This document shows positions 24,771 to 36,683 of a DNA stretch of 64,000 nucleotides, piece by piece. Under the pieces are notes generated by a model. That model had not been told where the DNA came from and ran no database searches. It saw nothing but the letters and a program-made list of their open reading frames with translations. A program made the position numbers and the translations under genes. The stretch is from Haloterrigena sp. KLK7 (GTDB lineage Archaea; Halobacteriota; Halobacteria; Halobacteriales; Natrialbaceae), in NCBI RefSeq assembly GCF_037914945.1, contig NZ_CP149787.1:1240001-1304000 (forward strand), given 5' to 3'. Numbering within the stretch: position 1 is the first letter of the stretch; each line of letters begins with the position of its first letter.

Positions 24771-25577
24771 TCACTTCGTTCGCTCAACCTCGCCGCTCTC
24801 TACCGCCCCATCGTTCGCCACCCACTCCGTCAGGCTCCCCTCGTAGAAGGCGACGTCCTCGTAGCCCAGCGCCCGGAGCACGACGTAGGTGTGGCTGATC
24901 CGTCGCGCGGTGTTACAATAGAGGACGATCTCTCGATCGGGCGTGATACCGTGCTCGGCCAGCAGCTCCTCGAGTTCGTCCGCGGGCTTCAGTCGCCGCG
25001 TCTCGTCGTCGACGACCTCGCGCCAGTCGAACCGGACCGCGCCCGGCAGGCGGGCCTCCTCGAACTCGTGGGCCTCGCGCGTGTCGACGAACAGCGCGCC
25101 GCGCTCGAGGGCCGCTTCGACGGCGGCGTAGTCGACCAGCGGGCTCTCCTCGGGCGCCAGCGGGTCGGGGTCGTACTCGGTCGGCTCGACGTCGGGGGTC
25201 TCGCTCGAGGTCTCGTACTCGCGGTTCCAGGCGCTGTAGTCGCCGTCGAGCAGGCGCACGTCGTCGTGGCCGTACTCGAGGGCGGTGAGCACGAACCGGG
25301 CGGCGAAGACGCCGTGGGTGTCGTCGTAGGCGACGATCGTGTCCTCGGGCGCGATGCCGGCCTCGGAGCACAGGTCGGCGAAGGCGTCGGCGCCGGGGAG
25401 GGTCCCCCGATCGACGTCGCTCTCGTCGCGGTAGCTGTCGAACGGGATATTGAGGGCACCGGGAATGTGGCCGATGCCGTCGTACTCCCAGGCGTCCCTG
25501 ACGTCGACGACGCGTACCTGCGGGTCCTCTCGGTGCGTTGCGAGCCAATCGGGCGTGACGACGACGGAATCGTTCAT
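24771..25577 (-). CDS. Thiosulfate/3-mercaptopyruvate sulfurtransferase (two-domain rhodanese)
   Basis: 268 residues with tandem rhodanese domains. The first, inactive domain has VVDVRDAWEYDGIGHIPGA; the second has FVDTREAHEFEEARLPGA and the active-site loop YCNTARRIS with Cys near 222. The C-terminus (GAVESGEVERTK) is encoded by the last copy of a tandem DNA repeat. Cytoplasmic; it transfers sulfane sulfur to cyanide or other thiophilic acceptors. It is divergent from a second rhodanese at 25859-26722, and the two share a 281-base promoter region. Confidence 0.92.
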   Translation of the reverse strand: MNDSVVVTPDWLATHREDPQVRVVDVRDAWEYDGIGHIPGALNIPFDSYRDESDVDRGTLPGADAFADLCSEAGIAPEDTIVAYDDTHGVFAARFVLTALEYGHDDVRLLDGDYSAWNREYETSSETPDVEPTEYDPDPLAPEESPLVDYAAVEAALERGALFVDTREAHEFEEARLPGAVRFDWREVVDDETRRLKPADELEELLAEHGITPDREIVLYCNTARRISHTYVVLRALGYEDVAFYEGSLTEWVANDGAVESGEVERTK

Positions 25578-25858
25578 TAATCGGGCTATACGAGCGGAGC
25601 TCCGAGAACGCACCGGTTTGGACCCGAACGAACGGGTACCGGGACAGTGGCAACTATTGCTGGTGTCAGTCGTCGGAACGTATCGCTGAACTGGTCTATC
25701 AGCCGGAAATACCACGTTTCAGCTTCTTTCGGGGCCTGTGAGCGGAGACAAACCGGTCGGGGAGCGGAAGATGTGGCAAGTATTTCCGCCAGGGTCGATC
25801 GGTGTCCGAATTGACCGGTTAAGCAGTCCCTTTGTGTGTCGGCGTCGTAGGAACGCGT

Positions 25859-33295: not shown

Positions 33296-34993
33296 CTAGT
33301 GGCCCTGATCGTGCGGGTTCAGCGCGGTGCCGTAGTTCTCGGCGTGGTCGGTGTAGTCGATGAACCGCGGCGCGTCGGGGTCGAAGGGACGCTCGAGGCT
33401 CTCGAAGGCCTTCTTCTTGTCCCAGCCCTGGAGCTTGCCGACCGCCGAGCGGTCCTCGAGGTCGTGGTAGTCGAGTTTCGGCTCGGTCATGTCCCAGGCC
33501 TTCATCCCCTGTTCGGTCCGGATGATGACGCTGGAGTACTCGTCCGAGGAGCCGACGGAGCCGACGGTGATGTCCGAACAGAAGCCGGTGAAGTCCGCAC
33601 ACTCGTCACAGCCCTTTAGCGCGGCGTCGTGGAAGTTCTCGATGTCCTCCTCGACGATCATCTCGCCGTCGTGGTCGTAGACCATCATCTTCCCGTTGAG
33701 GACGTCCATCTTGCCGATTTCCGACGGCGAGATGCCTCGCTTCTCCTCTAACTGCTCGCCCATGAGGCTGTGGTAGTTGAAGTTCTTCGTACACATCAGC
33801 GCGATCGTGTAGTCGACCGCGCGGATGCCCTCGTTTTGCTTCTGGTAGTCCCACTCGAAGTCCTGCAGGGCGCGGATGCCCTCGATCTCACACGGCGTGC
33901 CGACGATGGCCAGCGAGAGGTCGTCCCAGTCCTTGTCGGGAAGCTTGTGCTCCCACTGTTTCAGGTCGAGGTTGCCGAGCGCCAGCGTCTGGTTGTAGAC
34001 GGTGCCGGCGTTCTCGATGAGTTCCTCGGTGGTCGTCGCGAGGAAGCTCTCGGCCTTCCACTCTTCCTCTTCGCTCTCGGTGGCGACGAGCGCGCCGTCG
34101 ATCTCGCCCTCCTCGAGCAGCGTCGCGAGGACGCCCGTGACGACGCCGCCGTCCTGGGCGTTGTCGGTCCAGTCGTCCTCGACCTTCGCGGAGAACTCCG
34201 TGATCGGGTCGCCGGCGCCCTTGACGTTGTCTTCGCCGCCGGTGATCTTCCACTGGCGCTCGTACCGGAGGCCGCCGCGGGGACAGAAGTCCCAACAGAG
34301 CGAACAGCCGGTACACATCTTGACCAGCTTCGGGAGGTCGTCCTCGCCGACGCCGATCGAGTCCGAGGGACAGGCGGCGACGCAGGTCCCACACTGGATA
34401 CACCGTCCTTCGTCGATGACGGCCTCGTCCAGTTCCATGAACCAGGTCTTCTCGTCGGGCGTCTCGATGTCGTTCATCTGCGACCGGATCGAGTACTCCG
34501 GCGTCTCGAGGTCGACGCCGTCCGGAATCCCGACGCGGGTATCAGGTGCGTCGTCGTAGACGTCCTGACTGACGTCCTGTGCGGGCTCGGTGAACTCGAG
34601 CTCGCCGAGTTCGCCCATCTCGTCGACGTTGGCGGCGCCCGCCCCGTCGGTGGCGACGCGCTTGTCGTCGGCCGAGCCTGCGGACGCGGCCGATTCGGTC
34701 GTCTTCTCGCCGCAGGTGCAGGTGTCGGGCGAGCAGCCGTCTCCGTCGGCGGCACCGCCATCGGTGGCGATGGCACCGTCTCGAGCGTGCTCGGTTCCCT
34801 CTCGAGACCGCGGCGCGGCACCGCCGCTCTCGGGGAACATCACGGCCTCGTCGTCGTCCGTGTTCGACTCGGGGACGGTCGGGAAGACGCGCTCCGAGGA
34901 CTCGCTTCGCTCGTCCTCGCGGCTCGCGTGTCGCTCCGCTCCCGCTCGCTTCTTCGAGGACTCGCTTCGCTCGTCCTCGCCGTTAGTCCCCAT
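33296..34993 (-). CDS. F420H2 dehydrogenase/hydrogenase beta-subunit-type flavoprotein (FrhB/FqoF-like)
   Basis: 565 residues. Residues 1-170 are a low-complexity acidic extension, including an 8-residue EDERSESS repeat and a Cys-rich CSPDTCTCG. Two 4Fe-4S motifs follow: CIQCGTCVAACP near 197 and CTGCSLCWDFCP near 226. Then comes the FrhB region, with VGTPCEIEGIRALQ and C-terminal KGCDECADFTGFCSDITVGSVGS. The ferredoxin-then-FrhB order is that of FqoF/FpoF, which oxidise reduced coenzyme F420. The ATG at 34993 is preceded by GAGGTG at 6-base spacing and overlaps the reductase gene by 11 bases. It is likely the electron donor to that reductase. Confidence 0.82.
   Translation of the reverse strand: MGTNGEDERSESSKKRAGAERHASREDERSESSERVFPTVPESNTDDDEAVMFPESGGAAPRSREGTEHARDGAIATDGGAADGDGCSPDTCTCGEKTTESAASAGSADDKRVATDGAGAANVDEMGELGELEFTEPAQDVSQDVYDDAPDTRVGIPDGVDLETPEYSIRSQMNDIETPDEKTWFMELDEAVIDEGRCIQCGTCVAACPSDSIGVGEDDLPKLVKMCTGCSLCWDFCPRGGLRYERQWKITGGEDNVKGAGDPITEFSAKVEDDWTDNAQDGGVVTGVLATLLEEGEIDGALVATESEEEEWKAESFLATTTEELIENAGTVYNQTLALGNLDLKQWEHKLPDKDWDDLSLAIVGTPCEIEGIRALQDFEWDYQKQNEGIRAVDYTIALMCTKNFNYHSLMGEQLEEKRGISPSEIGKMDVLNGKMMVYDHDGEMIVEEDIENFHDAALKGCDECADFTGFCSDITVGSVGSSDEYSSVIIRTEQGMKAWDMTEPKLDYHDLEDRSAVGKLQGWDKKKAFESLERPFDPDAPRFIDYTDHAENYGTALNPHDQGH
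34895..34979. repeat. In-frame 60-bp direct repeat with inverted arms
   Basis: CGAGGAC-N11-GTCCTCG occurs at 34895-34919 and again at 34955-34979, exactly 60 bases apart. It lies in the coding region of the F420 flavoprotein and encodes EDERSESS twice without disturbing the frame. The same GAACGAAGTGAGCG-related composition appears in intergenic repeats of this window. Confidence 0.6.
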
Positions 34994-36683
34994 GGGCAAC
35001 ACCTCGTGCGACCGGCGCGTCGGCCCCTTGCATGATCTGTCGGAGCCGCTCGTTGTCGACGCGGCGGGTCCACTCGTAGAACTTCTCGCCGTCGTCGCGA
35101 CCCTCGCTGTAGGCCTCGAACAGCTGCTCGAGCGCCGGGATCACGGCGTGGGCGGGCACGGCGTTCTCGACCCAGTCTAAGAACTCGTTGTCGGCGCCGA
35201 GCGAGCCGCCGAGTCCGAAGTCCATGCCTTCGACGATGTTGTCGCCCTCGGCGTTGGTGCTGTTCTCGTCGTCGAGTTTGACCGTCTCGCCGCGGAAACC
35301 GATGTCCGCGATCTGGGGCTGGGCGCAGGAGGCCGAGCAGCCGGACATGTGCATCCGAATGGCCTCGATGTCGTCGGGCACGTCGATGCGTTCGTCGAGT
35401 TCGCGGGCCCAGCGCTTGGTGCGCTTCTTCGTCTCGATGATGGCGTAGTTACAGAACTCGTTGCCCGTACAGCCGACCGCGCCGCGGGAGAACGGCCCCG
35501 GATCGGGGCTGTACTCCTGGGCGAACGGCTCCGCGAGGAGATCGTCGACGTTCTCGTCGGGGATGTGGGTGATGAGGAAGTTCTGGTCGGTCGCGAGGCG
35601 GACGGAGGCGTCCTCGGTCCCGTACTTCTTCGCGGCGCGGGCCGCCGCGGCGAACTCGTCGCCGCCCATGCGGCCGGCGATCACGTTGAAGCCGACGTAG
35701 TTGAGTCCGTCCTGTTTCTGCTCGTGGACGCCGACGTGGTCGCCCTGGTAGCCGACGGTCAGGTTCTCGCCGCCGGTGGGCAGGTCGATCGTACAGCGGT
35801 CGCGGACGGCCTCCTCGAACTTCTCGGGACCCATTTGCTCGACGAGGTAGCGCATGCGGCAGACGCCGCGGTTGTTGCGATCGCCGAGTTCCTTGAACGT
35901 CTGGGCGACGGCGCGGCAGAACTCCACGGCGTCCTCGGGTCGGATGAAGGCGTCGAGTTCCGAACTCATCCGCGGGCCGTCGGAGAGGCCGCCGCCGACG
36001 CGGGCGTGGAAGCCGTAGAGGTGTTCGCCGTCGATCTCTTTCTTCGCGGGGACGAGTCCGACGTCGTTGATCTGGGACTGCGCGCAGTCGTGGGCGCAGC
36101 CGGTGATCGTGATCTTGAACTTCCGCGGGAGGTTGGCGTACTCGCGGTTGTTGGTGAAGTAGTCGGAGACGGCGTCGATGACCGGTTGCGCGTTGAAACA
36201 CTCGTGGTCGTCGAGCCCGGCGGCGGGGCAGCCCAGTACGTTCCGGGCCGAGTCGCCACAGCCCTGGACCGTCGTCAGGCCGACCTCGTCGTACCGTTCC
36301 CACATCTCCGGGACGTCCTCGACGCGGATCCAGTGTTTCTGGATGTCCTGGCGCGTCGTGATGTCGAGGTAGGCGTCGCCCCAGAGCTCGTTCTGCTCTT
36401 CGCCGCCGTACTCCTCGGGAGCGACGGCGTAGTCCTCGGTGACCTCGCCGATCACTTCGGCCTGTTCGGGCGTGAGCTTGCCGCCCGGCACCTTGGTCCG
36501 GATCATGAAGTAGCCCTCCTGCTTCTGGGCGTACATGCCGGCCCACTTCAGACGCTCCCACTCGCCGCCGCCGGCGCGCTCTTCGATCTCCTCGAAGGAA
36601 AGCTCCTCGTCGGCGTAGTCGTAGACGTCGTCGATGACGTCGAGCGGGTGCTTGTTCTGTTTGTACTGTTCCGTCGTGTTCAT
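34983..36683 (-). CDS. Siroheme nitrite/sulfite reductase
   Basis: 566 residues with the two-fold nitrite/sulfite reductase repeat. GCGDSARNVLGCP (about 143) is in the first half. The siroheme/4Fe-4S ligands are CTGNEFC (about 404) and MSGCSASC (about 449), giving C-x5-C...C-x3-C. CTGNEFC and the ETK that follows resemble ferredoxin-nitrite reductases and mycobacterial SirA, so nitrite and sulfite are both possible. No nitrate reductase or nitrate transporter gene is beside it, which leans toward sulfite. The ATG at 36683 has GAGGTG six bases upstream; a GTG nine bases earlier is less likely. It is first in an operon with the F420 flavoprotein. Confidence 0.85.
   Translation of the reverse strand: MNTTEQYKQNKHPLDVIDDVYDYADEELSFEEIEERAGGGEWERLKWAGMYAQKQEGYFMIRTKVPGGKLTPEQAEVIGEVTEDYAVAPEEYGGEEQNELWGDAYLDITTRQDIQKHWIRVEDVPEMWERYDEVGLTTVQGCGDSARNVLGCPAAGLDDHECFNAQPVIDAVSDYFTNNREYANLPRKFKITITGCAHDCAQSQINDVGLVPAKKEIDGEHLYGFHARVGGGLSDGPRMSSELDAFIRPEDAVEFCRAVAQTFKELGDRNNRGVCRMRYLVEQMGPEKFEEAVRDRCTIDLPTGGENLTVGYQGDHVGVHEQKQDGLNYVGFNVIAGRMGGDEFAAAARAAKKYGTEDASVRLATDQNFLITHIPDENVDDLLAEPFAQEYSPDPGPFSRGAVGCTGNEFCNYAIIETKKRTKRWARELDERIDVPDDIEAIRMHMSGCSASCAQPQIADIGFRGETVKLDDENSTNAEGDNIVEGMDFGLGGSLGADNEFLDWVENAVPAHAVIPALEQLFEAYSEGRDDGEKFYEWTRRVDNERLRQIMQGADAPVARGVAHGD

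Follow-up and report, generated by a model that had tools for sequence, protein, structure and literature searches.

A putative F420H2-dependent assimilatory-type sulfite reductase, aFsr, was predicted in 2012 by Susanti and Mukhopadhyay with haloarchaeal examples, and the parts of their paper covered here propose a separate-subunit complex as a possible forerunner of the fused F420-dependent sulfite reductase (Fsr) and list Haloterrigena turkmenica among the organisms abbreviated in the legend of the beta tree (PMC3448663). The beta subunit appears again in an alignment published in 2022 (PMC9295563). A literature search, outside the scope of which most subscription journals lie, found neither an assay nor a knockout of aFsr. 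Haloarchaea produce F420, yet a review from 2021 counts a single reported F420-dependent reaction in halophilic archaea and describes the importance of F420 in these organisms as 'enigmatic' (PMC8305020). Here we present an analysis of two overlapping genes, alpha and beta, in a stretch of 64,000 nucleotides from Haloterrigena sp. KLK7 (contig NZ_CP149787.1, positions 1,240,001 to 1,304,000; hereafter the window). Alpha encodes a siroheme reductase and beta a flavoprotein of the FrhB family, and judged from sequence comparison the pair is probably a soluble two-subunit F420H2:sulfite oxidoreductase of the aFsr type.

The pair as such was already predicted in 2012, and the present analysis adds quantitative support and testable features. 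Compared with the covered parts of the 2012 text, the additions are an overlap of 8 or 11 bases, the exact co-occurrence of both genes, a K-x-K substrate motif, a cysteine-containing N-terminal extension of beta and a second pair with a rhodanese-fused reductase. Fourteen years after its prediction, the pair represents a concrete and widespread candidate consumer of F420H2 in haloarchaea.

Relationship of alpha and beta to described enzymes

Alpha matches the Pfam family NIR_SIR twice (E 5e-53) and NIR_SIR_ferr once, with no match to Fer4. Its best PDB matches are the nitrite reductases of spinach and tobacco (E ~1e-82), followed by NirA of Mycobacterium tuberculosis (E 2e-70); the match to Fsr in the same sequence comparison is weak (37 bits). 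All NCBIfam equivalog cut-offs are missed, the nearest model being ferredoxin-nitrite reductase PRK09566.1 (391 versus 594 bits). The four cysteine ligands of the siroheme-[4Fe-4S] centre are invariant across 24 aligned sequences. With plant nitrite reductase (NiR) and M. tuberculosis NirA (2akj, 1zj8) alpha shares the two-repeat fold and the siroheme-cluster motif, but it differs from them by Lys190 in place of the plant Asn226 and by the dedicated flavoprotein partner encoded alongside.

Beta matches Fer4, FrhB_FdhB_N and FrhB_FdhB_C (E 6e-35 for the last), and its top-ranking PDB matches lie in the N-terminal half of Fsr (9tn7, E 1e-39; 7np8, E 5e-39), ahead of further beta subunits of the F420 family. 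Beta retains the unusual PC..C..CxxC ligand pattern by which cluster 1 is held beside the FAD in Fsr (PMC10229431), with spacings of 32/60 versus 40/54 in Fsr. FpoF and FqoF have the same free-standing architecture of two ferredoxin clusters and FrhB, but beta reaches only 122 bits against the NCBIfam model F420_dehyd_FpoF (cut-off 475) and has a siroheme reductase as its partner instead of a complex-I-like operon. The initial annotation of the window had called beta a flavoprotein of the FqoF/FpoF type; domains and PDB matches support an architecture of the FqoF/FpoF/Fsr-N type, and all four cysteine motifs listed there (CIQCGTC, CTGCSLC, CTGNEFC and GCSASC) were found.

The same annotation had read the locus as a split Fsr. 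Two separate genes and an F420H2-oxidase module as in Fsr (7np8, 7npa, 9tn7) are indeed present, with a two-cluster ferredoxin plus FrhB unit that would feed a siroheme reductase with the substrate residues R-R-K-K. The reductase, however, is of the two-repeat aSir/NiR type and not the C-terminal half of Fsr. Fsr is a single chain whose Dsr-like domain has one repeat and carries a two-cluster ferredoxin as an insert, and its final electron transfer runs via the inserted ferredoxin of the partner chain, whereas the pair consists of two chains without this insert and its beta has a long extra N-terminus. Because alpha is two-repeat and lacks the inserted ferredoxin, the pair and Fsr have only the F420H2-oxidase half in common; 'split Fsr' is a fair account of the possible working but a wrong account of the ancestry. 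Agreement with aFsr extends to the aSir-type alpha (two NIR_SIR repeats, NiR/NirA-type matches), the free-standing homologue of Fsr-N (two N-terminal ferredoxin clusters plus FrhB) and the haloarchaeal gene linkage, and nothing found here contradicts membership. If this assignment is correct, the pair would represent a second evolutionary route of joining an F420H2 oxidase to a siroheme reductase, with an aSir-type instead of a Dsr-type partner.

Conservation of the gene pair in Halobacteria

The positions of FrhB_FdhB_C matches and of window-type reductases were compared in 391 genomes of Halobacteria. FrhB_FdhB_C was found in 129 genomes. Separation of the two genes in most relatives had been named in the initial annotation as the outcome that would speak against a complex; the opposite was observed, with the FrhB gene located directly downstream and on the same strand of all 121 window-type reductases, which occur in 121 genomes. 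Among the 150 FrhB matches listed, three have no adjoining reductase (loci L045, L063 and L119) and one, in genome G141, was left unassigned. A siroheme reductase lies immediately upstream of FrhB in 97 of the 100 FrhB loci retrieved, and both genes are present in 52/52 loci from named genomes.

The 11-base overlap already noticed in the initial annotation is borne out by the coordinates (Table 1), with the ATG of the downstream beta inside the coding sequence of the upstream alpha. Of 87 sequenced pairs, 84 have a beta start that precedes the alpha end by 11 (n=55) or 8 bases (n=29), which gives the same relative frame, and the overlap is kept across alpha identities of 71-98% and in varied genomic surroundings. 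The same order and strand in 121/121 cases and the overlap in 84/87 show that the arrangement is not due to chance. GGAG, GAGG or GGTG occurs within 20 nt upstream of the beta start in 78 of the 84 pairs, and a GAGGTG-like ribosome-binding sequence is encoded in the last alpha codons (RGVAHGD in many pairs). Obligate linkage, the kept overlap and the embedded ribosome-binding-like site together argue that the translation of two subunits is coupled. A programmed frameshift yielding a fused protein was considered and discarded, as beta is equipped with a start and a ribosome-binding-like site of its own. No third gene was found linked in all loci; ftsY and a prefoldin gene are located upstream in about half of them, and no sulfur gene is among the conserved neighbors. 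In two genomes alpha appears fragmented next to an intact beta (G390:C1:1045306-1046406 and G318:C1:3520405-3521343), where assembly errors or decay are possible.

Table 1. Coordinates of the alpha-beta pair in the window and of related loci in the same genome
Feature	Location	Strand
Alpha (aFsr-alpha), siroheme-[4Fe-4S] sulfite/nitrite reductase, two-repeat aSir/NiR type, 566 aa	34983..36683	minus
Beta (aFsr-beta), two [4Fe-4S] ferredoxin clusters and FrhB flavoprotein domain, 565 aa	33296..34993	minus
Overlap of the alpha and beta coding frames, 11 bases, beta in +1 frame	34983..34993	minus
Shine-Dalgarno-like GAGGTG within the alpha C-terminus, 6 nt ahead of the beta ATG	35000..35005	minus
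K188-F-K190 substrate residues of alpha (Lys versus Asn226 of plant nitrite reductase)	36114..36122	minus
Siroheme-[4Fe-4S] ligands of alpha, C405-x5-C411 ... C449-x3-C453	35325..35471	minus
N-terminal extension of beta, ~190 aa	34424..34993	minus
C87-x4-C92-x-C94 motif in the beta extension	34712..34735	minus
Two [4Fe-4S] ferredoxin motifs of beta, C198..C237	34283..34402	minus
FrhB core of beta with PC368-x32-C401-x60-C462-x2-C465, equivalent of Fsr cluster 1	33482..34192	minus
Rhodanese-fused reductase and 418-aa FrhB gene starting right after its stop codon	L011:7402-11091 (G000:C1:2267901-2271590)	
nas cluster, K-x-N siroheme reductase and molybdopterin (NasA-type) oxidoreductase	L013:8331-14128	

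The N-terminal extension that precedes the first cluster of beta is missing in Fsr, in FpoF and in the 418-residue paralogue encoded in the same genome. It contains conserved islands, namely xPxVP (76 of 84 paired betas), C-x4-C-x-C and SIRSQMNDIETPDEKTWFMELDEAVI (also SIRSxMNDIETPDEKTWFMELDEAVI), and their conservation across 84 pairs argues against an artefact of start-site assignment. A C-x2-6-C-x-C motif is present in the extension of 72 of the 84 paired betas, while nine have no cysteine there at all; these cysteines may have a structural role, bind metal or take part in function. The reductase-less betas L045 and L063 branch close to the window clade or inside it and have lost the extension, and in L119 it is shortened. 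As copies without alpha lose or shorten the extension, a part in the interaction with alpha would be its simplest reading.

The window-lineage FrhB gene at L045:6801-9886, without extension or reductase, adjoins genes for a FAD_binding_2 (fumarate-reductase-like) flavoprotein, an SDR protein and a regulator of the IclR type. An integrase-like gene lies close by, and the FrhB gene possibly belongs to a different F420-linked dehydrogenase module. The gene at L119:5826-7241 is a lone duplicate of beta with shortened N-terminus, located on a second contig of a genome in which the full pair is encoded as well.

Proposed reaction, substrate and alternatives

In plant nitrite reductase the substrate residues are Arg, Arg, Lys and Asn, and Fsr has Lys463 in place of the Asn (PMC13381448). 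The corresponding tetrad of alpha is R62, R147, K188 and K190, with Lys190 as the equivalent of Asn226. K-x-K was observed in every FrhB-linked reductase with a readable motif, and K-x-N in the nas-linked reductase of this genome and in nas-type relatives. The closest relatives of alpha outside the haloarchaea but within the phylum are K-x-K enzymes, two of which adjoin ATP sulfurylase and one of these PAPS reductase as well. A free-standing K-x-K (sir-type) enzyme is missing in 58 of 121 genomes with the pair versus 58 of 270 without it, and in genus g2 it is missing in 18 of 19 genomes with the pair and present in 3/3 without; the Fisher comparison of these counts ignores shared ancestry and is descriptive only. 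The R-R-K-K residues, the separate K-x-N nas enzyme, the K-x-K relatives beside sulfate genes and the partial replacement of the free-standing type favor sulfite as the probable main substrate. The non-haloarchaeal loci L238 and L239 combine the K-x-K reductase with a PHO4-family permease and ATP sulfurylase, in L239 also with PAPS reductase, contain no FrhB gene, and are sulfate-assimilation clusters of another lineage of the phylum.

From these features we infer the following reaction. F420H2, the likely donor to alpha via beta, would transfer a hydride to the FAD of beta, from which single electrons would pass to the [4Fe-4S] cluster of the FrhB domain and then to the two clusters of the ferredoxin domain. 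This ferredoxin domain is predicted to dock directly on alpha at the site where plant-type ferredoxin docks on aSir, a site whose conservation has been described (PMC10229431). The siroheme-[4Fe-4S] centre of alpha would then carry out the six-electron reduction of sulfite to sulfide. The subunit ratio would be kept by translational coupling of the overlapping genes, and the N-terminal extension of beta is probably a tether to alpha. The F420 ligase CofE is encoded in this genome. In Haloferax volcanii, by comparison, the F420 ligase family gave a match and FrhB gave none. For the physiological role of the pair, sulfite detoxification appears as possible as sulfur assimilation.

Several observations weigh against an F420H2-dependent sulfite reductase. 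The plant chlorophyll reductase HCAR belongs to the FrhB family and uses ferredoxin; FrhB members need not use F420, and FrhB membership by itself is no proof of F420 use. AlphaFold models of each subunit alone, based on 23-24 haloarchaeal alignment rows, gave a mean pLDDT of 44.5 for beta and 57.2 for alpha, which is too low to assess an interface. The free-standing sir-type enzyme is kept in 63 of the 121 genomes with the pair. In this genome ATP sulfurylase (PF01747) gave no match and matches to PAPS reductase are weak, so that the sulfite might derive from sulfate, from sulfonates or from the surroundings. Fsr with Lys at the Asn position reduces nitrite (PMC13381448), so that nitrite use is compatible with Lys190 of alpha. 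The earlier statement that nitrite remains possible is thereby narrowed: sulfite-type residues and a separate K-x-N nas reductase speak against nitrite as the main substrate, and it stands for nitrite as a side substrate.

The same complex might receive its electrons from reduced ferredoxin or another carrier via beta, with an FrhB that no longer uses F420 acting as a flavin/iron-sulfur relay. HCAR provides a precedent for such a ferredoxin donor within the FrhB family. In non-methanogenic archaea including halophiles, moreover, F420 was detected only in small amount (PMC8305020). This explanation is nevertheless considered unlikely: among solved structures beta stands nearest to F420-linked Fsr and FrhB enzymes, CofE is encoded in the genome, and a ferredoxin-only route would need no beta, as other haloarchaeal siroheme reductases manage without it. 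Distinctly unlikely, too, is an F420H2-dependent nitrite reductase for nitrogen assimilation or nitrite detoxification. The nearest PDB homologues of alpha by sequence are plant nitrite reductases, and F420H2-dependent nitrite reduction is described for FsrII of ANME and for the Fsr of M. infernus (PMC9295563, PMC13381448), but the substrate tetrad of alpha, the K-x-N reductase located beside a NasA-type molybdopterin protein in this genome, the partial replacement of the free-standing K-x-K type and the occurrence of K-x-K relatives in sulfate-assimilation clusters are at odds with this function.

Co-expression of two proteins that act apart, e.g. beta on another acceptor and alpha fed by a halobacterial ferredoxin, is quite improbable. 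Reductase-less betas exist, one of them beside a FAD_binding_2 flavoprotein, which suggests that beta can serve other partners. Linkage in all 121 cases, an overlap kept over such a range of alpha identity and surroundings, the lack of any other universal neighbor and the same pairing in the rhodanese-fused lineage speak against separate action.

Other siroheme reductases

Apart from beta, this genome has a single FrhB gene, which directly follows a gene for an 810-residue siroheme reductase with two N-terminal rhodanese domains (Table 1). Both types of FrhB-linked reductase, the window type and the rhodanese-fused type, form one clade with 100/100 support, apart from the nas-cluster and free-standing types, and other haloarchaeal siroheme reductases occur without beta. 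Rhodanese-NirA fusions in Halobacteria have been noted earlier, and the FrhB neighbor is not mentioned in the parts of that paper covered here (PMC11237513). It is conceivable, yet highly speculative and very improbable, that haloarchaea possess two lineages of F420H2:sulfite oxidoreductase and that in the window lineage the flexible cysteine-containing N-terminal arm of beta, beyond being a tether, binds to the siroheme subunit and takes up or passes on the sulfide or persulfide product in a DsrC-like manner. A further rhodanese-like protein, with no sign of a link to the alpha-beta pair, is encoded at 24771-25715 of the window, ~8 kb from it.

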